Assembly: GCA_003024785.1 (NCBI GenBank)
Contig: PUQB01000194.1
Coordinates: forward strand, 161,837-225,836
Length of the DNA: 64,000 nucleotides
From: Selaginella tamariscina
Lineage: Eukaryota > Streptophyta > Lycopodiopsida > Selaginellales > Selaginellaceae
Reading direction: 5' to 3'
Made by a program: the position numbers and the translations under genes. The notes beneath the pieces are model-generated. The model made no database searches and was not told the DNA's origin. It saw only the letters and a list, made by a program, of their open reading frames with translations. Shown here piece after piece: positions 28,010-56,028 of this stretch (its first letter is position 1; each line of letters starts with the position of its first letter).

Positions 28010-31000
28010 CATTCCCACTTGTTGGTCAGCCATGAGGACATTAACGTTCAGTAATGTAGGTTCGATTTTGTAAAGTTTTTAAATATACTAACTTTGCATC
28101 ATTGCCCATGTTTTCCATATTCAAATTATTTCTTTACTATATGATAAAAGCTGTCTTGGTAATACCTAACATCCTGTTCCCAACTGTTGAGGATGCACTT
28201 GACTCAGATGATCACCATTTGAGCCTCTTTGAACCAAGCGTACTTGTATAAAGAAGAGTCTCCAGTCCATGAAAACAATCCCTGAAAATCCCAGAACGAA
28301 CCCACAATAGCTCCTATGCAAATTTCCCATGGAGAGGCATTACGGATCAACCATGTATCTCGCTCCTCTTCATTATTGGGTTCAACTCTTTGGGAACAAG
28401 TTGGTAACGGATTTGATCCACAAAGATTGTTACCTTGAAACGATGAAGCTGGGAACCTGGAGATAAATGTGGGGTTCAATACCACGTTCCCACTCAAATG
28501 ATTATTTGACACATTGAAGCTCCCAAGACGATCCAAGGCTGCTATATCTCCCGGAAGATTGCCTTGAAGGGCATTGCTGGACAAGTCAAGCGATTCAAGG
28601 TTAACAAGATTATCAAATCCAGAGGGTATGTTCCCAGTAAACTTGTTGAACGATAGATTCAGATACTTCATGAGCACGAGTTCCCCAAGCACTCGAGGAA
28701 TACCACCCTCCAGGAAATTTTTAGAAACGTCAAAGACAGTCAGTTCATTGATGAACTCGGAATAGATCAGCGTGGTGCCTTTCACAATAATCTGAAACTC
28801 CATACCCCCAGGACAGTCAGGACACTCTAGTCCAGGAATGTTGTGCCACCTTCACCATCTTTTGTATTGTTCTGGAAGCCTGTCAGTTGCCCAACACTCT
28901 CTGGGATGCCACCACCAAGACGTTATCAGACATATCACTACCGGGATTCTGCCTCCAAGTTTGTTGTGTGCTACCGACATGAGTATTAAGGAAGTCCAGT
29001 TGCATATATCTCAGGAAAATTACCAGAGAATGCGTTTCCCCTAAAGTTGGCAATCTTAACATTCATCATGTTTGGCTCAACATTTTTGATAAATCTCCTT
29101 CAAACCTGTTGTTAGAAACATCCAAGTGAACGAACCTTGGAAGGCGACCAAAATCCATATTGAGACTGCGAAGTCCATTGTGTGCAACTTTCAGAATGGA
29201 AAGACTCGAACAGTTGTTAAGAGCAGCAGGCAGTTCACCGGTCAACTTATTGTATGACAAGTCCATGTAGTAGAGCTGGGAGGCATTACCAAGAGCAGGA
29301 ATTTCACCAGAGAATTCATTTCTTGACAGGTCCAGCGTCCAAAGCTCGGGTGCGCTCTTGAGACACTTCGTGATTCCTCCAGTCAACAAGTTGCTAGACA
29401 GGTCCAACTTGGATATGGATGTGAGTGTGCAGTTAGGAGGAAGAGAACCTGAGAGATTGTTTCTTGCAAGATCTAGAGTGGAAAGGGCCCATCTGAAAAT
29501 ACTCTGGGGGTATCGAACCGGTCAGCTTGTTGGTGTAGGCCATCAAATTCTCCAATTTGTTAAGCTTTGATAATTCTGGAGGCAAGCTGCCTGTGAGATT
29601 GTTCACTCCTAGATCAACGTGAGTTAAGTTGACGCAAGAAGATAACGAGCTGGGAACCTGTCCTCCTATGTGGTTGAATGCAATATCAAGGAACGTCAGG
29701 GCTTGCATAGACTCACCAATGCTTGCCGGTAGGGTACCATCAAGATTATTCTTGTAAATATCCAACCGAGTCGCATGTGAACATTGAAGAATGGATTCTG
29801 GGATTCTATTGCTTAAGCTGTTCTCTCCAAGCAATATATTAATCAATGAACATGTGCTTTCAAACTCGGGAATCACACCGCTGATGTTGTTCCCATGTAC
29901 GTTAAAGCTGGTCAAGGATGGCAATTGCTTGAAAGTCTCTACAGGAAGCTGACCAATTATGTTATTGAACTCTAAGTTGAGCTCAAGCAGTTTCTCAGTC
30001 GCCACAAAACCTGTTCCAAATTCAAAAGAGATCAAAGAGTTACTCTGCATGAACAAGTGCGTGAGGTTGTTCTTCATGAGGAAAGTAGGAACACCTCCAG
30101 TCAACTCGTTTGCTCGTAAGTCCACTGCTTCTAAACTTGTACAATCTTCCAAGCCTGTTGGGACTGGCCCCTCAAGAGGTTGTAGCTGAGATCCAATTGT
30201 TTCAGCCTCGTGAGTTTTCCCAAAGAAGCCGGAATTGTGCCAATTAGACGATTCCAGGAAAGACTCAGTGTCTCCAGACTTGTACAGTTGCCTAAGCTTG
30301 GTGGAATGTTCCCAGTGAGCAGGTTGTCACTTGCATCAAAGAAATTGAGCTTCTGCAGTCGGCCAAGCGAGTCAGGAATGTTCCCTCCAAGGAGGAGATT
30401 TCCCATGAGATTCAGTCTTTGCAACCTCTGGCAGTTGCTGAGTGTTTCTGGTATCTCTCCAGCAAACAAGTTGCTTGATAAGTCGAGCTCTTCGAGGGAA
30501 AAGAGGGACCCCAAAGAAGAAGTTATTGTGCCCTTCAACACCAAATCGTTACCTTGGAGACGAATAGATGTGATATGGCTTTCTTTGTCACACGTTATCC
30601 CTGTCCAGTTGCACATGTTAGTATTTGAGTTCCAATTTGCCAATACATCCGTGGTGCTTCTGTTCCATGGAGGAGAGTAAGTCTTCACGTTTCTCTTGAA
30701 TTCCAGGAGCACATCAAGTTCTTCGCAAGCTGCTAAAACAAAATGTAAAATGAGAAAGAGGAACTTCATCTTGGAGAATGTATGCCCGATTGAATCTTCC
30801 CTACTGCAAATAGTATGTTTATAGTCAACGTGCATGTAGGTGGTCTGTTGGCACACACACACACACAATCAAGTTTAAAGCATAGACTTTGGACATTAGT
30901 GTTTACCGTGTCTTATGCTCGGGAGACTTGACATGAGTCATGCAAGGAATATGGTAATGTTTGCCACGTGGGAGACTTGAAGAGTATGTACCTTGACTTG

Positions 31001-33841: not shown

Positions 33842-33904
33842 TGTTGAGACATAAACTGATGCTCCATTGTAACAGAGATAGGGTTTTATGTTAAATTCTG
33901 AATA
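33842..33904 (+). repeat. 5' LTR of the copia element (63 bp)
   Basis: Starts TGTTGAGACATAAACTG and ends ATTCTGAATA. It differs from the 3' LTR at only about two positions (AAATTCTGAATA versus AGATTCTGAACA). Exceptionally short for copia. Confidence 0.9.
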
Positions 33905-33916
33905 TGGTATTAGAGC
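33905..33916 (+). other. Primer binding site of the copia element
   Basis: TGGTATTAGAGC abuts the 5' LTR directly, a tRNA-iMet-type site with one mismatch to TGGTATCAGAGC. Confidence 0.9.
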
Positions 33917-33967
33917 TGCTTCCGATTTGGGCAAGGAGTAATATGTAATGTAGCCTAGTGGGAGGCC

Positions 33968-34760
33968 ATGGCTGAATCTGGTGAGGATTCCTCTTGAAGC
34001 TCGTGTGGGAGCAAGCCCTTTGTGTTCAAGAGGTAGAACTTTCTATTGTGGAAGAAGTTGATGGAGACTCGACTATGTGTCAAAGGAGTTTTTGGGCTTG
34101 TCTGTGGGATTGACCCGAAGCCGTTGGAGGGCAACTCCAATGAGACCCTTAAAATCCACCAGGAGTGGAAAGTGTGGGCTGAGCATGTTGTGGGCTGCAT
34201 CTGCACTTACCTCAGCCCGGGGATTATGCTCAAGGTGGATACTGATAAGTCCCTTGCTGAAGTCTGGAAGTGGTTGTTGGACACCTACGGGAAAAAGACC
34301 GACATGGAAGTCATGCAGATCCACTCGGAGCTTGAGGCTTGTATCTACGAAGATGGAGACATGCAGGAGCATGCAGACAAGTTGAGTCAACTCTTTGCTG
34401 AACTTGCTGCCCAAGGGGACGAGCATATCATCCCGGATTTCATGCAAAAGGTGAAGCTCTACCGGTCCCTCCCTGCTCAATGGGACAGGGATGTCGAGGC
34501 TCTCGATCGTGAGGACAATCTCACATTTGAAACGGCGGTGGCCAAGCTTGTGGCCACAGCCTTGCTTCGCAAGGAGAAGGTCAAAACCAACGCTTTGCAT
34601 GAAGTCATGTATGCCAAACGATGAGTTCCTGAGCATGAGCTAGCCGGGCTTGATGCTGTTGCACCCTTGCCGCCTCCAGCCCACGATCCAGGCAATGCCT
34701 GGGCTGGCCGAGGAGCTCAAGATGGTGGTTGGGCTGGCCGAGGTGGACATGGACGAGCAA
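33968..34760 (+). pseudogene. Copia gag
   Basis: The ATG at 33968 (M-A-E-S-G-E) is followed by an early stop. From 34046 a 192-residue open stretch matches the copia gag fold (W-K-K-L-M-E, A-W/V-W-K-W-L-L-D-T-Y, Q-I-H-S-E-L-E, L-Y-R-S-L-P-A-Q-W-D), ending at 34624. A Gly/Arg-rich tail lies in another frame up to about 34760. No CCHC knuckle is visible and the sequence jumps to the protease end, so an internal deletion is likely. Confidence 0.75.
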
Positions 34761-34789
34761 CTTTTGGAGGGGTTTAGGATTCAAGACAG

Positions 34790-35474
34790 TGAGGAGATGA
34801 CGTTCAAAGACGCCTTGCATGTCCCAAGCATGTAGAAAACCTTATGTCGGTGGCGAGGTTGTGTAACGACGGGAAGTCGATCATGTTTACTAGTCATGGT
34901 GTGGATTTATATGACAAGTTGGATTTCCGTGTGACTGGGAGGAAAGTTCTCCATGCCAGGCGATGTGGAAACTTGTATAAGATTCTCTCACACCCTCATC
35001 TTGTTGCAGCCGCTGAGAACGTCATTGGTGCAGATGCCTATTTGTGGCATTGCCGGTTGGGTCATGCAAATCACAAGGCACTGCACGGGCTTTGTCCAAC
35101 TACATGGTGGAAGGGCTGGATCTGAGGCTTGGTTTTTCACATGCATTTTGTGAGTCATGTGTGTTGGGCAAACATCATTGCTGAAGTTTTGGATCTTCAA
35201 AGCACCGCTCTTCAGAGCTCTTGGAGCTGGTGCACTCCAACCTGTGTGGGCCCATGGACATCCCGAGTCATTTTGGCGCATGTTATGTTCTTACATTCAT
35301 TGATGACTTCAATCGCCTCACCAAACTTTTCTTCCTACGTCGTAAAAGTGAGATGATGGAGGCCTTCCGTGTGTACAGAGCTATGGTGGAAACTCAAGTT
35401 GGCAAGAAGCTTAAGGCTTTGCGCACGGACGGCGGCAAGGAATACCTTAACTCCACCATGCAAGAGTTATGCAA
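34790..35474 (+). pseudogene. Copia protease end, GAG-pre-integrase and first part of integrase
   Basis: F-K-D-A-L-H-V-P-S-M is the typical end of copia protease, with a stop before N-L-M-S-V-A-R-L. The GAG-pre-integrase follows with W-H-C-R-L-G-H-A and C-E-S-C-V-L-G-K-H-H (the HHCC finger, in two frames). The integrase core at 35221-35474 has L-V-H-S-N-L-C-G-P-M (first catalytic Asp position is N), F-I-D-D-F-N-R and L-R-T-D-G-G-K-E-Y. It is cut after Q-E-L-C by the DNA transposon and resumes at about 50203. Confidence 0.8.
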
Positions 35475-35495
35475 GTTGTAACTAAAATGGGCATG
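35475..35495 (+). repeat. Left terminal inverted repeat
   Basis: Matches the reverse complement of 50172-50192 at 20 of 21 positions. The similarity weakens further in, apart from shared AT-rich GGAATATTC words. Confidence 0.92.
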
Positions 35496-35887
35496 GCTAT
35501 AGTCCCATTTCCTAATAATTAGCAATTTTAGCTATTTAATTAGCATTTTCTAATATTAAAGGAATATTCTTTAGAATATATGTTTGAAAAGAGAATATTC
35601 TTTAGAATATTCTATTTTGTATTCTACCCTTTAATAAATTATAGCATACATTGAACAAAAATTAATAACATTATAAAAGTAGAATGTATTAAATTATATA
35701 ATATATTGCCTAATATAACAATTAAGGAAGAGCATAAGAGGTACATTATATAAATATTGATGTTGTTATTAAAATATTAATATTTAAATATAACATTATT
35801 AATTAAAAATTTGTAGTAGTAATAATATATATATAAATCCTATAATAATATAGTCAATCTTCCATATCATTTTTTAAATTTATATAG
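35496..35887. other. AT-rich left subterminal region of the transposon
   Basis: Contains repeated GGAATATTCTTTAGAATAT words. It is similar to the relic at 56029-56260. No gene seen. Confidence 0.6.
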
Positions 35888-38800
35888 TTAAGTATACAAT
35901 TTGGTACTATTATTAAAGAGTTTATAATAATTATGAATATTAATATATGATATTTTATAATTTGTAATTGCTTTAAGCTTCAGAAAACATACATTCCTTG
36001 CAGTTTTGTTAATCGTGACTTTATCAACGCTTCTTGACATCCACCCATATCGAATGGATTTAACATTTATAAAACATGCTGGGTCTTTTTGATTGGGAGA
36101 CCATGTTTTCTCTAGGCATCCATTATATCTTTCGCTCTCCTTCTCGTGTCGCCTTTTTTGTGGTTTGAACCATGCAACCTTAACAATACTATTTTTTGTG
36201 ATTACTTCAGGTGTGTCGATAATTTGACCCATCCAAATAGGCTGATTATATGACGCATCTGGAGTAATGAGAACCATCATTAGTTTTTGAAGATCCTTGC
36301 AGCAATCAAAGTATGCTTTAGGTTTTTGGTTCCTTTGTCCAACAAAGTGTGGGGTTTGCACTTCCACATCACTACTGGCTTCTATGTCGTCTATGCTCAG
36401 TGATGTCATTTCAATCTCCTCTCGCCACCTTGTTTTAGGCCAGAAAGGGTGTTGCAATTCTGTACTTGTGACAGTAGGCCCTTCCAACTCTCGAACAACA
36501 GTCTCCCAATAGTTGACCACATGCTTATATAGTTCTGAGTAACCAGTTGCCTTATCAGAATTCTTTGGCATCGATTTTTGAACCCATGCCACATATTTTT
36601 TGATGCCATCAATAATAACCTCTTGTTCCTTGAGCTGGGCACTCAATGGAATAGGGTCTGGTTGTCCTTCTGGGAGAAGTGGCTTTCCATCCTCTCCACT
36701 TTTGAAGAGCATTAAGCCCTCTTTCGGTAACCACTCCTGCTCTGATGGCCGTAACTTGTACTGCATAATAGGTATACCATCTCGTATGGAGAAAAAGAAT
36801 TGTAGCGGCACAAGGTGACCAACTAAAGAATCACTCCCTTCTTTTATATACTCCTTGAGAAATTTTTTGAAGTCTGGCACCTCAGTCACAAGCAAAGCAC
36901 AACTTTTTTTGGAGATGCAATTTTCAAAAAGATTCATCATATGCGGTAAGGTAAGTGCACTTGTCCTTTTTGTAGAGTTGGAGACCTTGCTGAAGAACGC
37001 ATCAATATCTTCATGAGTGTGACCAACCATAAGGAAACTGAGCGTGATTGTTTCAAACACACCTTTGGCAACAAGCATTGACAAGTATGCTAGCACATAT
37101 CTAGAAAATAAAAGTAAGTATGAGCTTGAGAAACCCTTAAGTAAAATGATTTACCTATTTTTGTTCTCGCCTGCACAATTATCCATCTGTAAAAGCAAAT
37201 GACGAGGAAGCTTATTTGATGTTGAGGACACATGTACACTATTTGAGCTAGATCCCTCCACTGAACCAACTCTCAACAGGGCCATCTGTTTTTTGTGCAG
37301 GTGTGACAATGCCTCTCATATTCCCAAGTAGCCTCAAGTGCAGACGTGTTCATGAGAGCATTATGTAAAGGTTGAAGGTGTTGTTTCTTCACTTTGAGAT
37401 CACTGATAGGACTTGTCTGTGAGTGGGCTTCAAGGTTTCTGAAACACATGGCTAACGACCCAATAGTGAAATTGGAGTCGCTAGACCAATGTGGAAGTGA
37501 AAAGTGTCCATATGACTCACAACCGTGTCCATGTGTTAGCACACCTGTCAATGAAATCGGAAGTTTCATGACATTTCCAAGGCACTTTGGTGTTGCAAAG
37601 AGCTTTGGAATGCTGGTCTTTGAATGATCCATCTTGTCATGGATCAAGCACAGGTACTCTGATGGGCGTGACACAGAAAGCATGCGGTGTGCATAGTACT
37701 GAGACCGGCAAGTTTGTTGTGCAATCATGTGGGCCTCCATCTTCCTTTGAATGGTAGTGATCTCCACCAAGGTTTTTGCACAAGCCTCTGCAGCCTTCAA
37801 TGATGTACAAGTGTCACACTTGAAAAGCTAGAGTGTTTTGCAATCTCCACATCCTTAAAATGAGTATTCCATATGTTGTTGAAGGTACCAGTGCAGATTG
37901 CTTGGAGCCCCATCAAACTGAGGCACTTGTTCACATGTTCACACAGTTTCAATTGAGTGTAGATTGAAGGCAAAACCTTGAGATTTTCCCTGACCCCTGC
38001 ATTTGTGGTTCGGCATTTGTGAGGCATCCTGTCTGCATTTGCTTCCACAAAAGCCTTGAGTATCTCTATGGCTGCCAATGATGTGAGAGCGGGTTTTGAC
38101 CAAGCGAGTGTTCCCATGAACTGAGGTTCGCGCTCCATCTAGCCACTCATCCCTCCGACGGTAGAACGTGGTCTTTGGGATCCCGTATATACTGTACCAA
38201 GCTTTGAAGCAGATGGCCACCTTATTAAATACCATGGATGTACTCTGATAACCTGTGTCCGAGGCCATTCCATCAATACACCCAGTTAGTGCAGCATATA
38301 CAAACTCATGCCTTTGCTTTTGGGTGAGCATACGAAAGACATGTCTACATTGGGTAATTTCATTCCGGTCTGCCATCTGACAACACTTCTTCTTGCAACA
38401 GTCAATCGTGGAAATGCTCGTAACACTTTCGGAAGATGTAGGATCCATCTTTACCCTCTTGCTGAAACTTGCAGGGGAAGATCTACAACCCATGAATCGC
38501 CTTTTTCTTACAATAGGACCAATGCAAGGAACCTCTTCAAATATGAGTTGTTCTTCCGGGTTGTTATTATTGAAATCCAACCCAGAATATGTTGAACCAT
38601 CTTGCCGTCTTAATTCAGATGTTCGCCACCTCACGAGGGATCCAGGATACAATGTGCCATTAGGTGAAACCTCTGTCACAACTACACCCACGAAGTCGGA
38701 CCCTAGTTTCTCTTCTGACACTGCTTCCATTGGATTTATAGCTGTGATGATGCCTCTTCCGACTTCAATCTCACGAAGAAAGAGAATCACCTCATCCATC

Positions 38801-39088
38801 ACAGCAGGCAAGCCATCATCTGGTAAACTCGTGCTACTATTTGTTTGTGACTCTGCATATTCTGTGTCAGCCTTGACTTCATCAAATTCCNNACAATACA
38901 GGAGAACCCTCCTCAAATTCCATTCCCAGAACCTCAACATGCTTGAAAATGGTGTTCACCCATACGTACACACAAGATCCTTGGGAAATATTGTGACATG
39001 ATGCATTATTATCTCGAACTTCCACAGTTCCAGTGCCAACTATCTCGTTGTTCCGAAGAAGACATACTTTATCTCCAGTATTAAACAT
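35888..39088 (-). pseudogene. Transposase candidate (DUF7869-like) with an N-terminal En/Spm-like module, frameshifted
   Basis: I start it at the ATG at 39088 (M-F-N-T-G-D-K-V-C-L-L); a CAG acceptor just upstream allows an earlier exon. Two small beta-rich modules follow (V-G-T-G-T-V-E; G-R-G-I-I-T-A-I-N-P...L-G), then a Cys-rich stretch, a helix-turn-helix-like Y-G-I-P-K-T-T-F-Y-R-R-R and R-T-S-V-H-G-N-T. Further on come M-D-N-C-A-G-E-N-K-N-R, a small intron at about 37100-37160 (GTAAAT...TTTTCTAG) and M-V-G-H-T-H-E-D-I-D-A-F-F-S. The acidic D and D-x-D residues fit a DDE/RNase H-like nuclease, as I recall for DUF7869-type transposon proteins; this needs a profile search. Frame changes near 38115, 37810 and 37320 and two N at 38891-38892 break the frame as read. 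Confidence 0.6.
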
Positions 39089-39242
39089 ATTGTCCTGCAC
39101 ATAAATAATTGTATTATTTATGATATCTGTTTATGCAATATTTTTAAGAAATCTGAATTACGGTTACTTAATAATATGCATATGCAATAATACATAATTA
39201 TGTTTAGAGATAATATCTCATGTTTGATTAATACAACTGATG

Positions 39243-40045
39243 GGCGGGATTAATCCCGCCACGAATCCTCCGACGAGGAACGGTCGGCGGGATTAATCCC
39301 GCCGCCGACTCAACCCCTTCGGAGAGAGTCGGCGGGATTAATCCCGCCTTGGACTTCCGACAAGGAGAGCCGGCGGGATTAATCCCGCCGCCTCTCCCCT
39401 TCGGGGAGTCGGCGGGATTAATCCCGCCGACTCCTCCGACAAGGAAGAGCCGGCGGGATTAATCCCGCCGCCCTCCCCTCGGGAGTCGGCGGGATTAATC
39501 CCGCCGACTCCTCCGACGAGGAAGAGTCCGGCGGGATTAATCCCGCCGACTCATCCTCCCGGAGAGAGTCGGCGGGATTAATCCCGCCGGACTCCCTTCC
39601 TCGTCGGAGGAAGAGGCGGCGGGATTAATCCCGCCGGCTCTTCCTTGTCGGAGGGAGTCCAAGGCGGGATTAATCCCGCCCACAATTCTTACGACGGGGA
39701 ATGGGTGGCGGGATTAAATCCGCACATAACTCTCTCCAAAACTATGATTTCAAAGAGATCTCGGGATAAATCCTGTCCCCAAATCTTTAAAACAGGAAGT
39801 GGTGGCGAGATTAATCCCGCCACCCCTTCCCTGCCTCCTAAAATGGTTGGCGGGATTAATCCCGCCGACAACTCTTTCTAATAAATTCTGGTAACTCTTC
39901 ATCAGTTGAGAAGGTTATCGACGGGATTAATCCCGCCACTCTTTTTCAGTGGCGGAGAAGCATTGCCCGGGAGATGGTGGCGGGATTAATCCCGCCACTT
40001 CTTCAAAGAGGCGAAAAAGAAATGGCCGGATTAATCCCGCCGCCC
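39243..40045. repeat. Palindrome array 1: about 17 units of GGCGGGATTAATCCCGCC
   Basis: The 18-bp unit is its own reverse complement. About a dozen copies are exact; the rest differ by 1-4 bases (for example GGCGAGATTAATCCCGCC at 39803). Spacing is 35-65 bp, tightest at 39243-39690, loosening toward 40045. Many spacers are themselves hairpin-like (TCCTCCGAC-GAGGA). The array starts about 155 bp upstream of the leftward gene's start. High GC here contrasts with AT-rich DNA on both sides. Confidence 0.97.
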
Positions 40046-40609
40046 CGGTTAACCTAGAATATTAAGTTAAAAGGATATTTAAACGGATAAATCCCTAACG
40101 GAATATATTATAATCCTAATGCATTTCTAAACCCCTAAATTGTAATTTTAAGAGAGAATGTAAGAGAGTGAATCTTAATAAGTATTTTTAAATTTGTTTA
40201 TAATACTTACTTGTAAACAGCACTGAAGGCGCCGTGCTTTCCTATAAAGAATAGCACCCAATTTAATCTCGCTCCTGAGATGATCACTATGAAGAAAAAA
40301 GAAGATCTAAAGAGTGAAAAATACAGAAATGAAGAAACCCTTGCCGGAGAAAGAACCAGATCTGAATTTGAGTGGGAAATTAAATGCATTTTCAAATTTA
40401 CATGTCAGACCGACAATACATATGTCAGAAATTCAAATTTTTAAAAAGAACAGAAAATAAAATTTAAGATGAGTTGACACAAATATCCGACACTCTGACA
40501 TATATACTCTCCAGTTCCAATGAGTATTTTAAAATTGCATTTAATGTTATTCAAGTGATTCAAGCTGTTTAATATTACGAAATTTTAGACTATATTCTAC
40601 ATTCTTAGT
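40046..40609. other. AT-rich non-coding sequence inside the transposon
   Basis: No gene or strong repeat is visible. It is a transition between palindrome array 1 and the AT repeat block. Confidence 0.4.
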
Positions 40610-41400
40610 ATTCAAGTATATTTATATATATATATATATAAATATATACTTATACAATAAATAAATTGATATATTATTATGTATCATTTAAAATATATTC
40701 ATAGTCTGTTTATTATTATTATTTTCTTAATTATCGAGTATTTAGTTTTCATTTCCTAGTATCAATGGGATATTCTTTATTTTTATTAATATTTGAAGAA
40801 TATTCTAATATTAAACCTGATTATCATAATTAAATTAGTCTTGTTCTTAATTATTGCAGTAATTATTCTACATTTGTATATATTAATGGGATTTTCTCAA
40901 TTAATTTGTTATTATTTCAAGAATATTCATGTGTTAAACCTTATTATCAATATTAAATTAATACACACTATGAACATATTTTAAATTATACATAATAATA
41001 CATCATTTTATCTAATATATAGTCATATATAGTTTTAATAATATATATATTAATATCATTTCCTTAATACTTGAGTAATTAATCTTCTTTATATTAATGG
41101 GATATTCTTTATTATTTTCTTATTATTCCAAGAATATTCCAATATTAAACATGATTATGATAATTAATTTAGTTAATTATTTGAGTACTTAATTTACATT
41201 TGTATATATTAATGGGATTTTCTCAATTAATTTCTTATTATTTCAAGAATATTTCAATGTTAAACCTTTTTATCAATATTAAATTAATATATATTATTAA
41301 AACTATATATGGCTATATATTAGATAAAATCATATATTATTATGTATAATTTAAAATATGTTCATAGTGTGTTTATTAATATTATTTTCTTAATTATTCG
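40610..41400. repeat. AT-rich direct and inverted repeats
   Basis: TATATTAATGGGATTTTCTC recurs at about 40878 and 41208 with the following ~80 bp. Related units with GGGATATTCTTTAT lie at about 40768 and 41100. An ~80-bp stretch at 40970-41049 (ATGAACATATTTTAAATTAT) is inverted at 41290-41375. Confidence 0.7.
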
Positions 41401-41485
41401 ATGTTTTTTTGCACACATATATAAACACAATCATAAATTTACACACGCATTACAAGAACTTACAAAAACACATATGCACACACAT

Positions 41486-42190
41486 GCACAACCCTAAACC
41501 AAACTGAAGAAATATGTTGCTTCTTTATTGAAAACATCATGTTCAACGCATGTATGATATATGTACTCAATCTGTGTGTATGTAACACATTGAATTTACA
41601 TGTGTAATATTTATATTAAGCTTGTTGGGAGCAAAACCCTAAACCCTAAACCCTGTGTATACATGTGTGTACAAAAATAATTTTTCAACACTCTCTCTTC
41701 ACACCATGCATGATCCATCCTAAACCCTAAACCCTAAACCCTAATATGTAACACAATGAATTTACTCATGTAATATGTATGTATGTCTGTGTGTATACAC
41801 GTGTATGTATATATGTGTACTCTGTATGTATATATGTGTACTTTCTGTCTTCTCTCATACATACACACCATGCATGATCCATGTTAATATGTACTGTCTC
41901 TTCTCTCAAACATACACACATGCATGATCTATAATATGTACTCGGTCTCTCTAAATATTATGTATGTCTGTGTGTATAATACACACCATGCATGATCCAT
42001 AATATGTACTGTCTCTCTTCTCTCATATACTATGTATGTATATCTGTGTATAATATGTGTAAGTATATATGTGTACTAATAATATGCAATGTGTACAAAA
42101 TAATTTTTCAACACTCTCTCTTCTCTCATACATACACACCATGCATGATCCATCCTAAATCCAAAACCCTAAACCCTAAACCCTAAACCC
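41486..42190 (+). repeat. Interstitial telomere-like CCCTAAA tracts with microsatellites
   Basis: Short runs of CCCTAAACCCTAAA occur at 41635-41654, 41719-41742 and 42155-42190, plus single units (41491). They are separated by TGTATGTATA and CTCTCTTCTCTCATACATAC type sequence that repeats around them (CACCATGCATGATCCAT several times). Confidence 0.85.
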
Positions 42191-42429
42191 ATGTAATATG
42201 TATGTATGTCTGTGTGTATACACGTGTGTATGTATATATTATGTGTATTAATATATGCAATGTGTATGTATGTATTGATACACATGAAACTTTAACACTC
42301 TCATGGACACACAATGTTAAATCCCTGCATGATTTATATTTTTGGGGTGTATGTGATACACCCACACACACGCGCGCTAATAATATAATGAAAGAATATT
42401 CGTTTAGGGCGAATCTATATTTTATTCTT

Positions 42430-42520
42430 TTTAGGGTTTAAGTATATTCTCAGAAGGAATATTCTATTAGGGTTAATATATATATTTAATTCATTTAGGG
42501 TTAGGTATATTCTTAGGGTT
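42430..42520 (-). repeat. Telomere-like TTAGGGTT words in the opposite orientation
   Basis: TTTAGGGTTTAAG, TTAGGGTTAATA, TTTAGGGTTAGG and CTTAGGGTTTC occur within 90 bp, opposite in orientation to the CCCTAAA runs just to the left. Confidence 0.75.
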
Positions 42521-42539
42521 TCAAGAGGCGGCGGCTGTG

Positions 42540-42822
42540 CACACAGGTGAGATGTGTGTGTGTGTGTGGTGTGTGTGTGTATATAGTATAGGAGTGTGCG
42601 TATAAATTTTTTTAGTTTTATCTCTGTGTGTGTTTGTTTATCTGTATGATTTTATTTGTTTCGCTCACACACGCATACACACGATATACATATACACATA
42701 TATATATTACCTTATACATATATACATACATATATTATGTGTACCAGTATCTGTAAAATTTTTTTTATTGATCTATCTCTCCCACACACGCACACTGCTT
42801 TAACACACACACACACAACACA

Positions 42823-42896
<74 letters not shown>

Positions 42897-43524
42897 TATA
42901 TATATATAATCAATGCATATTAAGAAATAGTATACAACACTAGTTTATATATATGCTTATATATTCATATGGGTTATATATCTATACACACATATATATA
43001 TGTGTGTGTTTTCTGTATAATTTTATTTATTTATTAGTTTTATCTCTCGCACACACACGCACACTCCTGTGTATGTATATGTGTGTGTGTGTGTGTGTTT
43101 GTTTATCTGTATGATTTATTTGTTTCGCTCACACACGCATACACACAATATACATATCACATATATATACTATATACATATATACATACATACAACACTA
43201 GTTATATATATGCTTATATATTCACAGACTCTCTCTCTTTCTCTATGGATTATATATCTATATACACACATATATATGTGTGTGTTTATCTGTATAATTT
43301 TATTTATTATTAGTTTTATCTTTCGCACACACACGCACACTCCTGTGTATATATATGTTTGTGTGTGTTTGTTTATCTGTATGATTTATTTGTTTCGCTC
43401 ACACGCATACACACGATATACATATACACACATATATATACCTATGTACACACATATATTATGTGTACCAGTACTGTATAATTTTATTTATTTATCTATC
43501 TCTTGCACACACACGTACACTCCT

Positions 43525-43573
<49 letters not shown>

Positions 43574-43640
43574 CAACACCACACATATATGTGTGTGTGT
43601 TTTTATCTGTATAATTTTTTTATTTATTAATTTTATCTCT
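42540..43640. repeat. CA/TG and TA microsatellite block
   Basis: Long TG/CA runs and (TA)n (for example 42855-42905 and 43550-43572) alternate with a repeated module (TCTGTATGATTTATTTGTTTCGCTCACACACGC, given here as key words TTTGTTTCGCTCACAC and TATCTCTCGCACACAC). The longer frames here are low-complexity and not genes. Confidence 0.85.
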
Positions 43641-43663
43641 CGCACACACGCTAAGCCCCTCGA

Positions 43664-45030
43664 GCGTGGGATTAATCCCGCCGCTATAGGTTTATGGCCT
43701 CGGCGGCGGGATTAATCCCGCTATATGGTTGGGCCATGGCGGCGGGATTAATCCCGCTGCTCACCCATGCCCTGCGCGGAATGCGGCGGGATTTATCTCG
43801 CCGGCAATGGCTGTGTGAAGGCCCTAATGGGCGGGATTAATCCCGCCGGATTCCGTGCAGGGCATTTACAGGGGATGGGCGGCGGGATTAATCCCGCCGC
43901 TCATGAGGCTAATCGAAGAGCCTGCATGAAAGATCCTGCACGGAAGGCTAACCGAAGAGCCTACATGACATGTCCTGCGCGTAAGGCGGCGGGATTAATC
44001 CCGCCGCCCAGGAAATTCACGCAGGACATGAACGGCGGGATTAATCCCGCCCCACGCTCATGCCCTTCGCGGAGGGCGGCGGGATTAATCCCGCCGCTCA
44101 GGGCACTTCCGCAGGATATAAGCGGCATGATTAATTCCGCCCCCACCCATCCCTGTTCAAAATGCCGCAGCCAATATATGTGTGAGCGCATGATTTACGA
44201 GAGGGCGGCGGGATTAATCTCTCCGAACCTTCATTGCCCGGTGGCGGGATTAATCCCGCACCCTTTTTTCCTCCATTGGTATGTTGAATCAATCCCAACT
44301 AATCTGTCTGAGACGGAGAAGGTTTACAAAATACCAATGGAGGGAACTGAGAAGGGTGGTGGGATTAATTTCACCATCCCTTACATGGTGGGCCGGATTA
44401 ATCCCGCCGCGTACGCATTCCCTGCGCGGAATCGGGCAGGATTTATCCCGCCGCCATTGGCCTGCCTGAAGGGCTTAGGCGGCGGGATTAATCCCGCAAG
44501 ATTTCGCACAGGGCATTGGCGTTCGGCGGGATTAATCCCGCCGTAGGCCCGAGTGAAGGGCCTGGGAGCGGATTAATCCGCCGCGTACGCATGCCCTGCC
44601 GGAATTGGGCGAGATTTATCCGCCGCCATTGGCCTACCTGAAGTGCCTAGGCGGCGGGATTAATCCCGCCGAGTCTTCAATGCCTGTTGGAGAATGAATC
44701 CCGCCACCCTTCTTTTTTCTCCATTGGTGAGTCGGACCAATCCTAAACGTTTCTGTTGAGACGTAGAAGGTTTACAACATACCAATGGAGAGAATTGGGA
44801 AGGGTGGGGAAATTCATTTAACCATCCCTTACATGGTGGGCGAGATTAATCCCGCCTCCTTTCTGGAGTCACTGAAGGGTGTGAGAAATAAATCCTGCCC
44901 AGTTCTCTCTGAGACCGAGAAGGTGGCAAGATTAATTCCGCACTCCCGTTCAAGGCCTCCAGAAAGGTGGCGAGATTAATCCCCCCACTCTTTCAGGAGG
45001 CATTGAAGGGGTGGCGAGATTAATCCCGCC
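43664..45030. repeat. Palindrome array 2: about 25 units of the same 18-bp palindrome
   Basis: Exact GGCGGGATTAATCCCGCC occurs at about seven places (for example near 43830, 43881, 43987, 44078, 44524, 44653). The others carry changes, often symmetric (GGTGGGATTAATTTCACC) or in the centre (GGATTTATC). Spacers share GCATGCCCTGCGCGGAAT and AGGGCCT words distinct from array 1. It is more diverged than array 1 and ends about 340 bp before the ATG of the rightward gene. Confidence 0.96.
44271..45030. repeat. ~448-bp higher-order repeat within array 2
   Basis: The word CTCCATTGGT at 44271 and 44719, its inverted partner ATACCAATGGAG at 44331 and 44779, and CCATCCCTTACATGGTGGGC at about 44375 and 44824 repeat with a period near 448 bp. 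Each 12-bp pair forms an inverted repeat around a ~48-bp loop. Confidence 0.85.
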
Positions 45031-45144
45031 GCACCTTCCATGTGAATATATATGTGTATTAGTATATATAAGTTGCATATCTCATTTTATTTACTTTTAT
45101 CATCTTATCATAATATTTCGAGTAAAAGCTAGGAATCTATGTAA

Positions 45145-45231
45145 AACTGTCCAGAGCTCACATTTGTGGTGGTTCTAAAACGAAATGTTATCTTTCTTTT
45201 GCACTAACACAAATGTGAGCTTCGGACAGTT
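45145..45231. promoter_or_regulatory. Long stem-loop upstream of the ParB-methyltransferase-like gene
   Basis: 24-bp arms at 45145-45168 (AACTGTCCAGAGCTCACATT...) and 45208-45231 pair at 22 of 24 positions around a ~39-base loop. It lies between array 2 and the gene's ATG, so it could be a promoter, transcript or replication structure. Confidence 0.8.
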
Positions 45232-45369
45232 AATTACGTCTACTTCTCTCTGTGTATTATTTTTGTATATTCGGTTTATACAAGTGTGTGTGCGTTTTTA
45301 TATATTTGTATTCATAGTGTATTTTTGCAGAAGGACGATTTGATCAAACAAGGAGATCGAGTCATTAGT

Positions 45370-48300
45370 ATGGAGTCGTCGTCAAATTCTGGGTAAGAAT
45401 TAAAATAAAATCTGTTATACTCGGATACTTGAACTAATCATTTTTGTATTCAGATGTGGAATTGAGGTGACATTAAAGACAAGAGCAGGAGAAGAGATGG
45501 GCAGGGGGATTCTGGAATCAACTTGGCCATATTTTAAGATAAATGGGAAGCGCATTGGAGCAACCATGGCTGCTGTCAAATTAACCTCTGTCACATCTCA
45601 TGGACAAGCAAAACAATGGAAAGTAGATTCGCTAGTCAAGCACCCGAAAGCAGGCTGCGAACCCAGATTGGACGATTCTCGACACATATGCCTTGTTCCA
45701 TCCAATGTCACGTTCTCGGATCCAGAGGTCGTCAGTTACAACATTAATTTCGGGTGGTTTTGTCGACTTGTGGATAATGACGTTCACGTGTTCACTAATG
45801 ATGTTGACCTTGGAGTTCTTCTTCAACTCAACGAAAGCCCATCTATGGAGGGGATCCATCTGGATGTCTACTTCGAAAATCTTCAGACTCATCGAGTAGG
45901 TGTATTGTCAGGAGATATTGCTTCACAATACAGAAAATCAGCAAGTGAAGCAATCTTCCCTCTTCACATTGAAGAAGAACACAGCGACATCATAATGGAG
46001 ATTGAGAGGGTGGCTCGGTCTCAGGTTCTCTACAGATCACGTTCAATTTGCTTAGGGAGCTTTGGGAGCTGGAAGAGTGTGCCGAGAACACTAGAACAGC
46101 TGCAGTCGGGGATCACACATGTTGATTCGGATCGCAAAAGAAAATCATCAATCGTTTTGTCAGCTGCACCTGTGGCATCTCATGCTGCAATAAGTCACAA
46201 GGAAATGATGTTGGATGATAAGATTTATCCTTGTAGGGTTAAATATTGCAGCGTCAACCCAAACTTCAATTACAGGCCACTCAACCAGGAACGTGTAGCT
46301 GAGCTCATGGAGAAGATGAAGGACGACAATTCTTATACCGTTCCACATAATGCTGTTTTGTGTCCATACTATGAAAGAAGGAAGGGCGCTGACAAAGTCT
46401 GGATCACAACACCAGAACAACTCATGAAGATTCAGACGGAGAATAAAAATCTATCAAGTACTACATCATTAGTGGCCAGCACACAATAACGGCAGCCCAA
46501 CGACTTCTCGAGAACACAACAAAGGAACGATGGCAACAAAACTTTCCGAGCATACCCGTGAGAAGCTGACAAAAAGATCGGCGTTTTTAGCTAAGCCGAA
46601 TCTCACAATCGAGCAGTACCATAAGTTATCGGCGGAATGGGACGCTGCCGACACCAACCACTACAACAGCAAAATATGGGAGAAGTTTAAACACACGCGA
46701 GCCGTGTGGGAATCTCTTCAGCGACCACAAAGAGCTACCGCAGGGAATACACAATCTGCGGAATACCGGGTAAGCAAATTGTTTGGGCGGGATTTATCTC
46801 GCCGGTATATTAATCTGTCTTTTTCCTCAGAGAGTTGAAGAAATTGCAGCAGTTGATTTTGCCCAGGTGGGCGGGAAGGAAACATCCTTTCTGATGATGT
46901 TGATTTCTTGCCCCGAAGATAGGATCTTTGCCAAATGGTTGGGGATTATGGAATCCTTTTCAAAAGGAACACTGAAGAAGAAGCAGACAAGTGAAGGGGA
47001 GCCCTCAGAAAAGTCTGCAAAGAAACCCAGTAAGACGCCGAAGGCTAAGTCTGTTCAATCTACAAAGGATGTAGACAACGATTTCAAGCTCACATGGTTG
47101 AAGCCTTTAAATGGAACAACGATGGAGGAGATGGAAGTCTTGGCTGATTTGGTGATCGATGGCAAACTACAAATTAATAACAGCAGCCCAACCTCTCCTT
47201 TTCATCTCAAGGCAATGGAGTTGAAGACGGTCAGGCATTTCAAGGAGTGGTTGGGAATACACTGCCACAAACTGGGTTGGACCTCGACTTCAACATATGA
47301 AGAGGTCAGCAAATATTTGCATGTGACGAACGATGATATGCTTGTCGAATGGGTGAACCAATCGGAAGATCTAGGCAAGAATCTATTGCACGCCAACGCC
47401 AAAAAGGAGAACATTGGGATGACGCCTTCTCTTATGGCAGTCCTTCAGCAGCGGAGAACCGAATTGAACCTTATAAAGGAGGATGCTACGAATCACGACA
47501 AGCCCTACAGATGTTTGTTGTTAGATTCGGAGACTTTATGGGGTAACATCACTGCTTGTAGGAAACCGTTTCAATTGTTCGTGATGGATCGGCGGGTGTC
47601 AAAAAATCTTTCGACAGATAGGGCACTAGAGGATCTGGTGGAGAAACTTAGCCGTGCAAGCATATACATAGAAGGTATTTATTATTGAATTCATGCTTGC
47701 GCTCTTCACTGATACCTACTTTTTCAGGTATTTATTTCTTGATTCTTGCTCATGTCACCGATACTTTTGCCTTCGCCTTCGCCAAGAAGAATAGACATCG
47801 TTGGACAGGATTTTATATGAACGATGCTAATCCCAAGTGCATTGATACCGTTGTTCACTTGGTTGTTAGGAATGCGCCAAACAATTTCAAGCTTCCAAAT
47901 GACTGGCCAGGCATCTGTTTGCACTCCAACGGCCCTGAACCTCCATCCGATACACCGATAGGTATGAGTGACGTATTCGGCAATGTACGTTATCCAAACA
48001 TTACAAGTCAAGCGGCACGGAGCATCGTCAACTTGATCAGGGGTCCTCACAGTGATGCGTGGGTTTTTGACTACTGCACTAGGGGGTCCGTCTTGAAGGA
48101 GTGTTACCTTCGGCATACATGTGTGTTTGCCGTTGAAAAGGATAAGACCATGGTTGAGGACCTGAACAAGTGGATAGATTGGGTCTCAACTGAGTACCCC
48201 AACGATCCATAAAGGCGTATTTGAGAAAGTTCCCTCCAGATAAGTGCGATAGCTCTGAAGGTGAATCTGGTTCAATCTCGGAGTCTGAGAACGAACTTCA

Positions 48301-48472
48301 ATCAGATATTAGACCGGAAGTTATCTCGAGGAGTACAGAACATTCGCACACTCCAGGACCCATGGAAACATCAATAGAAGATGCAGAAGATCTTGAACCA
48401 TCTCACAAGCGGCTTAGACCTTCTTCGCCTCACTCAGAAGGTAATAGCGAAGAAGAATTGATAATGAATTGA
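45370..48472 (+). pseudogene. En/Spm-like module + ParB-like domain + N4/N6 DNA methyltransferase-like domain, frameshifted
   Basis: Exons: 45370-45392 (M-E-S-S-S-N-S-G), 45454 onward, up to 46769, 46831-47674 and 47728-48212. The introns 45393-45453, 46770-46830 and 47675-47727 are 61, 61 and 53 bp, all GT-AG and frame-compatible. The N-terminal module (M-G-R-G-I-L-E-S...R-I-G) echoes that in the leftward gene. The ParB/sulfiredoxin-like part reads Y-R-P-L-N-Q-E-R-V-A-E-L then I-I-S-G-Q-H-T-I-T-A-A-Q. The methyltransferase-like part is in permuted order: L-D-S-E-T-L-W-G-N-I then F-V-M-D-R-R-V (canonical D-P-P-Y) and later V-F-D-Y-C-T-R-G-S-V (canonical D-x-F-x-G-x-G) with A-V-E-K-D. The altered motifs suggest lost or changed catalysis. 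Frameshifts near 46455, 46560 and 48200 break it; an acidic, NLS-like tail (K-R-L-R-P) follows at 48221-48472. Confidence 0.6.
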
Positions 48473-48743
48473 TAGAGTGATGAATAGTTGTAAATGAGTG
48501 TAACATAAGGCATTTTTGTATATTTCTTTTATATTTGTACAGAAAATAAATTCTCAAGGATTAATGAAGCTTTTAGTTCAAACATGGGTCACACATTAAC
48601 AAGGTAAATAATATACCTTGATAATTTTAAGGTCAGCTAATTATCATTTTGCAGATGTAATGAAATAATTGAGAACATGGATTTTCAGCATTGGCATGAG
48701 GTAAGAGAGGGTTTGGCGACAATTTCTTGTGCCACATGTCAGA

Positions 48744-49909
48744 ATGACAGAGTTCATGCAGGAAATGGATAATAATGCAGCTCAAAACATCGTTACCATG
48801 GGGGCCACTTCATCATCATTTTTATTGGCTTCAATTCCGAAATCAATTTCTTCAGCGCATGCAATATCTGAATCTTGTAAGGATGATGTACAATTAAATG
48901 ATGAAGGGATAGGCAACGAGATAGTGGCAACGGATAAATGTGAAAGGGAGCAAACAAGTGATTTGCAAAGTATTCAAGAGGCAACGCTATCTCATGTTAC
49001 TCATGGCCATATTGTGTTGTTGGATGTCAATGGTGTTCTGCTTCATCGACAAAGGCCCGAGGATAGAAAAAAGAAATCAAACAAGGAGATTTCATTCCTT
49101 GTCATGGTAAATTTCGATATGATATTATTTTTCGTCCAGGGTTGGATCGTCTCTTTCAAAAGCTTAAGGAGATGGGTGCGCTTGTGGGGATTTGGTCATG
49201 CATGCAGATTCATAACTTAACACCGCTGTTGAATTTACTTAAGAAACATTGTAGTGTTGCAGAAGAGGTGATTCGTAAAGATTGGATTTTTGACCAGCGA
49301 ATGTGTCATAAACCTCTCGAATTTCACAATATAAGAAAGGAAAGCAAGCCATACTTCTTCAAGAATGAAAGAATAATTGGGACTCATGGGGAGATCAGTC
49401 GCTTAAGGATAATGAAGAACGCACAGATGTTAGTAGTAGACGACTCTCCTCAGAAGGCTATGCTCAACCAAAACATTGCTTGTATTCATCCAATCACTTT
49501 CGATCCATATTCTGATACCGATATCATGGATGAGCTAGTGAACTACTTGGATACGTGCCTCAGAAAGAAGAATCTCGAAAATTTTTGTGAGCAGTATCCA
49601 CCGTATCATACATTTCCTGAAGCTTTTCTTTCTCGTGATATTGAATTTTATAAAATGAAGGATAGCAACCGGGCGCTTTATAATATTATTCTTAAGGAAC
49701 GTCAGTTTTTAGATGAGCCTTTATGCAGACCTTCTCTTATCACATCTTATGTATTAACAAGGATGGCAACTCCCAATTGCATTCGTGAGAGTGTTAAGTG
49801 GTGGCAACAACATCAAGATATTGACCAAAATGATTTGATTAATCCGGAGAGTGATGATTTAGACAAAATGAAAAGATTTCTTTGTATGATAGAAAGAAAG
49901 TATTTATAA
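48744..49909 (+). pseudogene. FCP1/NIF-type HAD phosphatase-like protein, one frameshift
   Basis: I start at ATG 48744 (M-T-E-F-M-Q-E-M); an upstream exon is possible. An acidic, low-complexity N-terminus leads to HAD motif I, V-L-L-D-V-N-G-V-L-L-H-R. The frame shifts near 49095-49120: the expected F-R-Y-D-I-I-F-R-P-G-L-D-R-L-F is in another frame, leading into the open stretch 49142-49909. That stretch has V-G-I-W-S-C-M and the motif IV-like M-L-V-V-D-D-S-P-Q-K-A, as in NLI-interacting-factor (FCP1 homology) proteins. D-x-N replaces the usual second acid of motif I, as I recall for a plant subgroup of this family. A Lys/Asp-rich C-terminus of unknown role follows. Its place inside the transposon suggests captured cargo. 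Confidence 0.65.
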
Positions 49910-50171
49910 AAAAATTAACATGTTGATAAGAAAATGATTTCATTTGTAATTATGTTTGATAGTATTTCTTCATTATTGTAAACTATTTTTAGAATAATAT
50001 GAATATTCTAAGATATTTTAGGAATATTCCTTACTAAGTAAGGTTATTGAAGGATTAATTAATTAATTAATTAATATTTAAGGCTTAATTACATATTAAT
50101 TAAATGATTAATTAATAATTAAAACTTAAGTATTAATTAGTAATTTATTTTATATTCCCATTTTCACGTAT
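49910..50171. other. AT-rich right subterminal region of the transposon
   Basis: Contains (TTAA/ATTAAT) runs and GGAATATTCC words related to those at the left end. No gene seen. Confidence 0.6.
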
Positions 50172-50192
50172 CATGCCCACTTTAGTTACAAC
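50172..50192 (-). repeat. Right terminal inverted repeat
   Basis: Reverse complement of 35475-35495 with one mismatch. Confidence 0.92.
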
Positions 50193-50202
50193 GTGCATAG
50201 TT

Positions 50203-52480
50203 GTGTCGGAATGCCGGTATTCAACACCACGTCACCACCTGGTACACCTCCCAACAGAATGGCATGGCTGAGAGGAAGAACCGGACACTGGTGAATGCAG
50301 CGCGTAGCCTTCTTGCTCATGCACATTTGGGCAAGGAGTTCTAACAGGAGGCTATTGCAGTAGCCATGCATGTTCAGAACTGGTTGCCAATTGTGGCATT
50401 GAAAGGCAAGACGCCTGAGGAAGCATGGACGAGTCTGAAGCCTGATGTATCCCACCTCAGGGTGTTTGGTTGCACAGCGTATGCCCATATTCCTGACCAG
50501 CTGCGGAAGAAGCTGGACCCCAAGAGCCAGAAGTTGATCTTTGTTGATTATGCACAAGATGATGAACGGCGTCGGAAAGCATACAGGTTGTGGAACCCGG
50601 TGGACAAATGCACCATCATCAGCACGGATGTGGTGTTTGCTGAGGATGACCTCACATGGTGTTGTTCCACGAAACAACTTGTGGACTCCTTCATTGACGA
50701 TGACTTGTTGGCTCCTAATCCCAGTTGGTTTTGTGGATGTAAGGGAAGACCATGGCCTTGATGCCCCGGGGGAGCTACCAGGTGATGCTCAAGGTGATCA
50801 AGGTGATGCTGATGTCATGAGCAGCTGGCACCTAAACAGCCTAAGCGGCAAGTGTAGCCGAAGCAACCAATTGATGTCCATGAGAGCTGGCACCTGAGCA
50901 GCCAAAGCAGCAGGTTGATCGGCCTCCTCATGTCCCTCGCCGGCGGGGCATGCCGAATCTTGTGGTAGCTTCAGACAGACCACCACAAGAGTGCCTTCTC
51001 GCAAGGTGTTGGAAGATGCCACTTCTCTACTTGATGAGGAAGCCGAGATGTGCATGTTTGTGGATGAGAAGGTTCCCTCCACCTTTGAAGATGCGGTGAC
51101 CGGAGCGGAGTCTCTTGAGTGGAAGCAGGCCATTCAGGACGAAGTGGATGCACAAGTGCAAAATTGCACATTCAAGGAGTGTGCTGCCACATCGACGTCA
51201 ACTTGTTGACTACAAGTGGGTCTTCAAGTGGACAGTGGATCCCCTGACTGGGAATGTCAGACACAAAGCCAGACTCATGGCAAAAGGCTTCACCCATGTG
51301 CGAGGAGTTGACTATGAGGAGACATTTTTGCCTATGGTGAAGTTGCCTAGTGTCCGTGCACTCTTGGCACTTGCTAACGCCAGGAGGTGGCAAGTGCACC
51401 AGATGGATGTGAAGACCGCGTTCTTGCATGGGGATTTGCATGAGGAGATCTTCATGTGCATTCCTCTAGGCTTTCCCAGGCATGGGGACACAGCTCGATC
51501 CTGGCGCCTTAACAAGGCCTTATATGGTCTCAAGCAAGCTTCTCGGGTGTGGTACCAGAAGTTTGATGAAGCTTTGTGTTGACAAGGCTTTCGGAGAACA
51601 CACAGTGATTCCAATGTCTCTATGTGCGGGGTTGGTCGTGGACGGATCATTGTTGCCTTGTATGTGAATCTCTTCATCACTGGAGGTGATGAAGACGGGA
51701 TTGGCAAGTTGAAAGTAAGCTTGACACAACGGTTTCAAATGAAGGACATGGGAGAGGTGAAGACGTTCTTGGGCCTGCAAATTGAGCGGGATATGCAGGC
51801 TGGGACTTTGAAGATTCACCAGCAGCACTATGTGCAATCTCTTATCTCTCGGTTTGGCATGCAGAACTGTCGTCCAGTTGAAACTCCCATGCTCATCGGT
51901 GCTGTCAATCCGAACGCGCCTCAGACGGGAGGAGAGATATGTGATTCTGAGATTTCGTATTGCAGCCTAATAGGTTGTTTGATGTTTCTGGCGTTTTTCT
52001 CTAGACCGGACATAGCATATGCCACTGTGCTGCTTATCCAGTTTGGATCTCTCCGAGTTTGTGCCATTGGAAGGCTGACAAACATGTACTCAAGTACCTA
52101 AAGGGAACGCCTCACCACGGCCTATGCTTCTCAAGCCGTGACACTCAGCTGGTCACTTACACTGATGCAAGTTGGGGACAAACAAAGGAGCTCGGTCCAC
52201 CATTGGCTACTCTTTGGAATTGTGCGGGCCTCGATTGCGTGGGGGAGCAAGAGGCAGAGTGTGGTGGCCCTTTCGTTTGCAGAGGCTAAGTACATTGTCT
52301 TCACTTCTGGATACAAGGAGCTTATATGGATGCGGGGACTCTTACAGGAGCTTGAGCGGTGCAACGAACCCCCATGCTCAGCTGGTGTGACAATCACAGT
52401 AGCATTGCTATGAGCAAGAACCCCACTATCATGGACAGACCAAGCATGTGCTCATTCAATTTCACTACATTCGAGAGCTT
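50203..52480 (+). pseudogene. Copia integrase end, reverse transcriptase and RNase H
   Basis: The integrase resumes with A-G-I-Q-H-H-V-T-T and Q-Q-N-G-M-A-E-R-K-N-R-T-L (catalytic E present), then R-V-F-G-C-T-A-Y-A-H. RT at 51190-51960 has W-K-W-T-V-D-P, H-Q-M-D-V-K-T-A-F-L-H-G and L-N-K-A-L-Y-G-L-K-Q-A. The catalytic Y-V-D-D is degraded to Y-V-N-L-F-I-T-G. RNase H near 52060-52400 shows K-Y-L-K-G-T, Y-T-D-A-S-W-G. Frames change several times, so it is dead as read. Confidence 0.85.
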
Positions 52481-52618
52481 GTAAAAGGCGGTTTGGTGAA
52501 GGTGACTCATTCTTTTGTGGATGAGATGGTGGCGGACGTGCTCATCAAACCGTTGGCCGACCAAGTTCGCTTTGTTATGGGGGCCTCAAAGTCTTTTGAG
52601 CATCAATTTACAGGGGAG

Positions 52619-52681
52619 TGTTGAGACATAAACTGATGCTCCATTGTAACAGAGATAGGGTTTTATGTTAGATTCTGAACA
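52619..52681 (+). repeat. 3' LTR of the copia element (63 bp)
   Basis: Starts TGTTGAGACATAAACTG after CAGGGGAG and ends AGATTCTGAACA, followed by the TACCT target duplication (52682-52686). Confidence 0.92.
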
Positions 52682-55800: not shown

Positions 55801-56028
55801 TCATTCTCAGAGTTGAACTCCAATACTCATTCCAAACTCGAACTCTAGAATCATGGACCAGTACTTAGTTTGAAGCTTGAACACTATTGAACTCTCGAAC
55901 ACCAAACTATTTGGACCTCATTTTGGACTTTTTATACATACTTCAATTATACTATGAACCATTTGTGTCTAATCATCTTCCATGTTGGTACTTTCCACCT
56001 ATTCAAATTACAAAGCACTCTTAAACAA
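52687..56028. other. AT-rich non-coding region
   Basis: About 3.3 kb of AT-rich sequence with a (TA)n run at 52783-52808, AT-rich near-palindromic stretches (54430-54680) and no supported gene. Short frames (for example 54074-54286) lack any motif. Confidence 0.55.

Follow-up and report, generated by a model that had tools for sequence, protein, structure and literature searches.

VANDAL21 of Arabidopsis is a Mutator-like transposon, while the En/Spm (CACTA) elements have a 3-bp target site duplication (TSD) and a protein, TNPA, that reads repeated motifs. According to the available text of PMC5735166, VANC21 motifs form tandem repeats ahead of VANA21 and are also present in introns of VANC21 and VANB21; VANC21 causes DNA methylation to be lost, and its localisation is influenced by motif density. 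The available text of PMC12477816 describes Sola1-1_Ec32 of the brown alga Ectocarpus, an element of 21.5 kb with an accessory gene (ParB-like plus methyltransferase) on the strand opposite to the transposase. The present analysis concerns a transposon of 14,730 bp (nt 35,469–50,198) in the lycophyte Selaginella tamariscina, within a stretch of 64,000 nt (contig PUQB01000194.1, positions 161,837–225,836), which is referred to as the window. It carries three genes and two arrays of an 18-bp palindrome, and is probably best explained overall as a high-copy, recently active transposon with palindrome-based self-recognition in a VANC-like anti-silencing layout.

The Selaginella element resembles VANDAL21 in having element-specific motif arrays upstream of a gene and a motif within a putative intron, together with an accessory protein; in VANDAL21 the motifs are read by VANC (PMC5735166, available text). 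It differs in that its transposase pieces match only DUF7869 and no Mutator-like transposase, and in that its motif is an 18-bp palindrome rather than the YAGTATTAY given in that text. With Sola1-1_Ec32 it shares large size, an accessory gene opposite in strand to the transposase and a ParB-like region (weakly supported here), but the transposases differ (Sola1 versus DUF7869), a methyltransferase is unsupported in the present element, and the available main text of PMC12477816 contains no word beginning 'palindrom'. The likeness to En/Spm is a weak resemblance of an N-terminal protein module to PF03017 (TNP1/En-Spm); in two diagnostic features the element departs from that group, since its ends begin ATGCA, not CACTA, and its TSD is 4 bp, and the transposase domain is again DUF7869. 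Homologous DUF7869 (PF25273) proteins of moss, liverwort, molluscs, corals and echinoderms have no element name, and element structure was seen for only two contigs carrying them (L001 and L002, below). The initial annotation had proposed an undescribed element. No description was found in the open-access literature on ParB and transposons or on novel or bryophyte/lycophyte DNA transposons, nor in the available part of a review of giant transposons (PMC6431247), a scope outside which Repbase and subscription papers lie; the combination of a ParB-like/methyltransferase gene opposite a transposase, however, is already on record from the brown alga (PMC12477816, available text).

Boundaries, insertion site and copies of the element

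The element was first marked out by 21-bp inverted core ends at nt 35,475–35,495 and 50,172–50,192 (20/21 matching). These are real but had been placed 6 bp too far in. In copies elsewhere in the genome, conservation runs 6 bp further outward, giving ATGCAMGTTGTAACTAAARTGGGCATG, and the element was therefore delimited as nt 35,469–50,198, its outer limits being set by comparing the junctions of copies. The terminal inverted repeats (TIRs) are 27 bp long with 25/27 paired bases matching: the left one (ATGCAAGTTGTAACTAAAATGGGCATG) lies at nt 35,469–35,495 (plus strand) and the right one at nt 50,172–50,198 (minus strand). Both are supported by window matches, simulated windows, the genome search and the junctions. 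The ungapped inverted match reaches 26/28 bases, 27 of these positions falling within the element, and no non-local inverted pair of at least 26/28 occurred in five simulated 64-kb windows. The sequence TAACTAAARTGGGCATG matches the window twice at ≤3 mismatches, both times exactly and in inverted orientation (shuffles, mean 0.58). Counting the window copy, ATGCA starts the left end at all 11 junctions (one with an extra base adjoining) and TGCAT closes the right end at 9/11. The TSD is 4 bp, in the window AGTT at nt 35,465–35,468, repeated at nt 50,199–50,202. Inspection by eye showed a clear 4-bp TSD in eight of the 11 junction pairs: AGTT (window), ATGT, ATTA, ATTA, AAGA, TAGA, CTAT and ATAC.

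The insertion lies in the integrase gene of a copia retrotransposon (nt 33,842–52,681, plus strand), as had been recognised at the outset. The left flank corresponds to positions 15–88 of 102 of the Pfam rve domain, and the right flank to rve_3 positions 2–29. Without the insert and one AGTT the copia frame is restored (MQELCRNAGIQHH; codons ATG CAA GAG TTG TGT CGG AAT GCC GGT ATT, read by eye). The host element is bounded by a 5-bp TSD (TACCT) and by long terminal repeats (nt 33,842–33,904 and 52,619–52,681) of only 63 bp, which is unusually short.

In the source genome assembly (300.7 Mb, 1,391 contigs), GTTGTAACTAAARTGGGCATG at ≤2 mismatches gave 2,383 forward and 2,291 reverse matches, 4,674 in all, while the reversed control gave none; the ends are thus far from single-copy. 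From the end matches listed (100 places), ten opposite-end pairs about 12–15 kb apart were chosen and both junctions of each examined. Ten further copies were also taken whole, nine being these junction pairs and the tenth, C69, standing in place of C1:312123, a choice made before any result; they are 13.8–15.0 kb long. With terminal inverted repeats, a TSD of fixed length and many copies at separate sites, the sequence has the characters of a class II TIR transposon, as originally proposed, and nt 35,469–50,198 is almost certainly one.

The transposase-like, accessory and HAD genes are present in all ten further copies, with order and orientation unchanged relative to the window copy and with query coverages of 95–100%, 97–100% and 98–100%, respectively. 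When codons were kept only in locally well-aligned stretches, the pooled ratios of nonsynonymous to synonymous substitution (dN/dS) against the window copy were 0.34 for the transposase (8,001 codons, four in-frame stops), 0.29 for the accessory gene (7,521 codons, one stop) and 0.46 for the HAD gene (2,674 codons, four stops). The genes had been taken for cargo; from their uniform presence and these ratios they look instead like a constrained, fixed set. Between the window copy and one other (C2c), the filtered synonymous divergence (dS) does not exceed 0.002 in any of the three genes, and the family has therefore probably been active recently. Frame breaks vary among copies, and one that was compared across copies differs in length at one short run. 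Since the breaks differ and uninterrupted copies exist (C7 is open through the ParB-like region and, for example, C65 through the HAD gene), assembly errors may account for at least some of them. Within a single copy dS is unequal among the genes (in C2a, for example, 0.011, 0.130 and 0.033), which suggests mosaic copies arising by recombination.

Proteins encoded by the element

The transposase-like gene (nt 35,890–39,130, minus strand) is broken in frame at several places in the window copy and includes two N (nt 38,891–38,892). Its pieces have DUF7869 as their sole Pfam match above cut-off (E = 3e-25). A protein search returned 150 relatives at E ≤ 0.001; those listed (the best 120 of 150) include Physcomitrium, Riccia, Mytilus, corals and echinoderms, and the DUF7869 set itself spans moss, liverwort and molluscs. 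The closest relative among the matches listed is about 50% identical over most of the protein. In an alignment of 15 sequences the motifs IxDxMD, LQxDNx(5)KN and VGHTHEDID are invariant or nearly so; residues D252/D255 and E440/D441/D443 are invariant and D401 nearly invariant. This conserved D...D...E/D pattern fits a DDE/D enzyme and, together with linkage to the TIRs and multi-copy status, leads us to infer that the protein is a transposase, in keeping with the initial annotation. A PDB sequence search with the DUF7869 protein gave no match, the term DUF7869 was not found in the open-access literature searched, and no DUF7869 was confirmed in the viral contig collection. In the prokaryote contig collection it was found on two contigs, L001 (filed as cyanobacterial; a metagenome-assembled genome) and L002, both of which are probably eukaryotic contamination. 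DUF7869 proteins, from those of moss and liverwort to those of corals and molluscs, can now be tied to a defined element with exact ends, a TSD, a gene set and thousands of end copies.

The transposase-like gene carries two N-terminal modules with weak likeness to TNP1/En-Spm, and a related module begins the accessory gene (nt 45,370–48,209, plus strand), which continues with a tentative ParB-like region (nt ~46,200–46,545) and a C-terminal region without a recognised fold, and is broken by indels in the window copy. A profile derived from the N-terminal modules of DUF7869 transposases (38 modules, many of these proteins having two) matches the accessory N-terminus with 17.7 bits, a score reached by none of 20,000 shuffles (best, 9.3 bits); the best of 153 natural windows scored 0.3. 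Against the 339 open reading frames (ORFs) of the window (stop-to-stop, at least 60 residues), it ranked the two transposase pieces first and second (31.4 and 16.3 bits) and the accessory ORF third (15.1 bits, E = 3.7e-4), ahead of a fourth at 6.7 bits. Because the two proteins share this module, a common DNA target or partner is suggested.

The third gene (nt 48,729–49,909, plus strand) is of the HAD-superfamily NIF-like (CTD-phosphatase-like) type. Its frame is broken in the window copy (E = 9e-12 when joined), and another copy has an uninterrupted 375-aa frame (E = 1.5e-12). The NIF domain (PF03031) scores 47.9 bits against a gathering score of 21.8, so that the phosphatase identity proposed earlier is supported by sequence.

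Palindrome arrays and their possible readers

The palindromic array reported initially is made up of an 18-bp sequence, GGCGGGATTAATCCCGCC, with 38 sites in the window at ≤3 mismatches, every one of them within the element (0.01 by chance). The source genome contains 27,128 exact copies, and the control none. At ≤5 mismatches, a left array of 18 sites (nt 39,243–40,041) lies directly upstream of the transposase gene and a right array of 24 sites (nt 43,665–45,030) upstream of the accessory gene. A motif search placed a single further palindrome (nt 46,786–46,803) in a putative intron of the accessory gene. The same arrangement, with one array upstream of each of these two genes and one site inside the accessory span, was found in 11/11 copies; positions in the copies were assigned by distance rather than by alignment, and placement in promoters or an intron follows from the gene models. 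The spacing is 42–46 bp in 210 of the 319 palindrome intervals of ≤120 bp. Helical phasing of the arrays was considered and rejected, as no period between 8 and 12.75 bp fitted much better than the others.

The palindromes are predicted binding sites for the accessory protein, the transposase or both. The DUF7869 enzyme would cut at the TIRs, cut-and-paste being the simplest reading, and self-recognition would keep the promoters of the element open, as VANC does for VANDAL21; the HAD/NIF phosphatase might, at a guess, adjust host transcription or chromatin. For the self-recognition and anti-silencing role itself, which is argued by analogy, the chances appear evenly balanced. The palindrome stands before both genes in every copy examined, and the element may therefore be a second, apparently independent case of a transposon reading itself and escaping plant silencing. 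A more tentative proposal, to which rather less than even weight is given, is that a transposon with an unnamed domain (DUF7869) evolved a palindrome code of its own, spaced at ~45 bp and read by transposase and accessory protein through one shared module, and that this would counter silencing independently of VANC and have aided spread through a 300-Mb genome.

Several observations weigh against the VANC-like reading and its premises. The likeness to VANDAL21/VANC is one of motif layout, and no homologue of the accessory protein was found among 5.8 billion proteins by searches that reach only relatives with short exact words in common. Pfam scanning of the accessory piece did not recover the shared module. 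Because the copies were selected by paired ends ~12–15 kb apart, neither the frequency of gene loss nor that of deleted copies can be read from the sample. The signs of constraint depend on the filter: unfiltered dN/dS, which takes in out-of-frame matches after frameshifts, is 0.70, 0.55 and 0.66 for transposase, accessory and HAD genes, with 61, 44 and 32 stops, and single ratios are noisy for near-identical copies, several exceeding 1. Two of the 11 junction pairs have no TSD and one is ambiguous. Lastly, the arrays could be sites for the transposase only.

If so, they would act as promoter or enhancer sites or in transpososome assembly, and the accessory protein would be a TNPA/TNP1-like transposition helper. 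Consistent with this, the DUF7869 ORF of L001 has palindromes of its own and no accessory gene is visible beside it, on a contig of just 4.3 kb. The ORF is flanked on both sides by a different palindrome, TTTAGCTCGANTCGAGCTAAA, with five matches at ≤3 mismatches (nt 34–54, 114–134, 489–509, 3573–3593 and 4071–4091; expected, 0.00), a pattern derived from L001 itself, for which a stricter count gives three copies. The shared module, moreover, resembles PF03017 in three of the ten proteins scanned, all below cut-off (P0007, E = 6.6e-4, just under its cut-off; the window piece, 0.03; P0009, 0.043). Against it, the window arrays lie kilobases from the TIRs, starting ~3.8 kb inside the left end and stopping ~5.2 kb short of the right, and the accessory gene is present in 11/11 copies and looks constrained. 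A role confined to the transposase is thus considered rather unlikely. On L002, which is filed as Bacteroidetes and whose DUF7869-like gene is apparently spliced, four related palindromes with 44–45 bp spacing lie beside that gene (nt 4989–5146). They fall within an 89-bp tandem duplication, and one repeated palindrome was likewise present in 4 of 17 control segments, so this contig taken alone is no evidence.

The accessory protein had also been read as ParB/methyltransferase-like. It might then bind the palindromes and mark the element's own DNA with N4-methylcytosine or N6-methyladenine (4mC/6mA), as proposed for Sola1-1_Ec32, with which the opposite-strand layout is shared (PMC12477816, available text). 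The ParB half of that description was retained as weakly supported. The middle region shows two anchors in the correct order, with 9/20,000 shuffles as good (8/20,000 for a copy whose frame is uninterrupted) and none of 153 natural windows, and its sole PHROG match is to a ParB family (E = 0.19). This region was, however, picked by eye. An earlier and less local test had a weaker outcome: set against 2,000 longer shuffles, the whole protein came 35th and a cut of 170 residues came 3rd. In addition, hhalign gave a probability of 9.7% over 14 columns, and no ParB match was found in Pfam, NCBIfam, PDB or phage records. The accessory ORFs were not among the six best of the 339 window ORFs for the ParB profile, the frame break splitting the region. 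The methyltransferase half was rejected: its profiles did no better than 678/5,000 and 1,291/5,000 shuffles with the longest piece unaligned, motif I alone was equalled by 565/20,000 shuffles and outscored by natural windows, and the C-terminal part did not match phage methyltransferase profiles. PDB matches of the C-terminal region were likewise set aside (a designed repeat protein, single-domain scores of a few bits). Because a methyltransferase could not be found, the VANC-like reading is preferred, and self-marking by a ParB-methyltransferase appears unlikely. About 100 bp carrying the ParB-like signature (window nt ~46,455–46,560) are almost identical in the 11 copies examined, silent sites included, also where the flanking sequence has become dissimilar.

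Structural or silencing features without a dedicated reader (small-RNA hairpins, insulators or by-products of repeat expansion) are an improbable explanation of the arrays. Two stretches folded as single strands do form strong hairpins (z = −9.8 and −9.4), and such repeats can grow by slippage, but the palindrome core columns are near invariant where the spacers are variable, the spacing is clustered and the array positions are the same in 11/11 copies. That the region is ordinary chromosomal sequence and not mobile can be dismissed, given the TIRs, the TSDs, the in-frame empty copia site and the thousands of end copies returned by the genome search, which refutes it.

Other sequences within and around the element

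Between the arrays lies an AT-rich central spacer (nt 40,042–43,664) with microsatellites, imperfect repeats and short telomere-like runs of CCCTAAA (nt 41,634–41,744 and 42,154–42,190), for which sequence analysis supported no gene. Neither Rfam nor tRNA scanning of the window gave a match. A diverged left-end relic of a related element, including a transposase C-terminus, lies 6 kb away from the full copy, at nt 56,022–56,400 (plus strand); blastn aligns 139 bp of it at 75%, and tblastn 70 residues at 33% (E = 0.017). To the left of the element, a stretch containing leucine-rich repeats occurs twice in the window (nt 18,859–21,844 and 28,017–30,929), the two copies sharing 94% identity.

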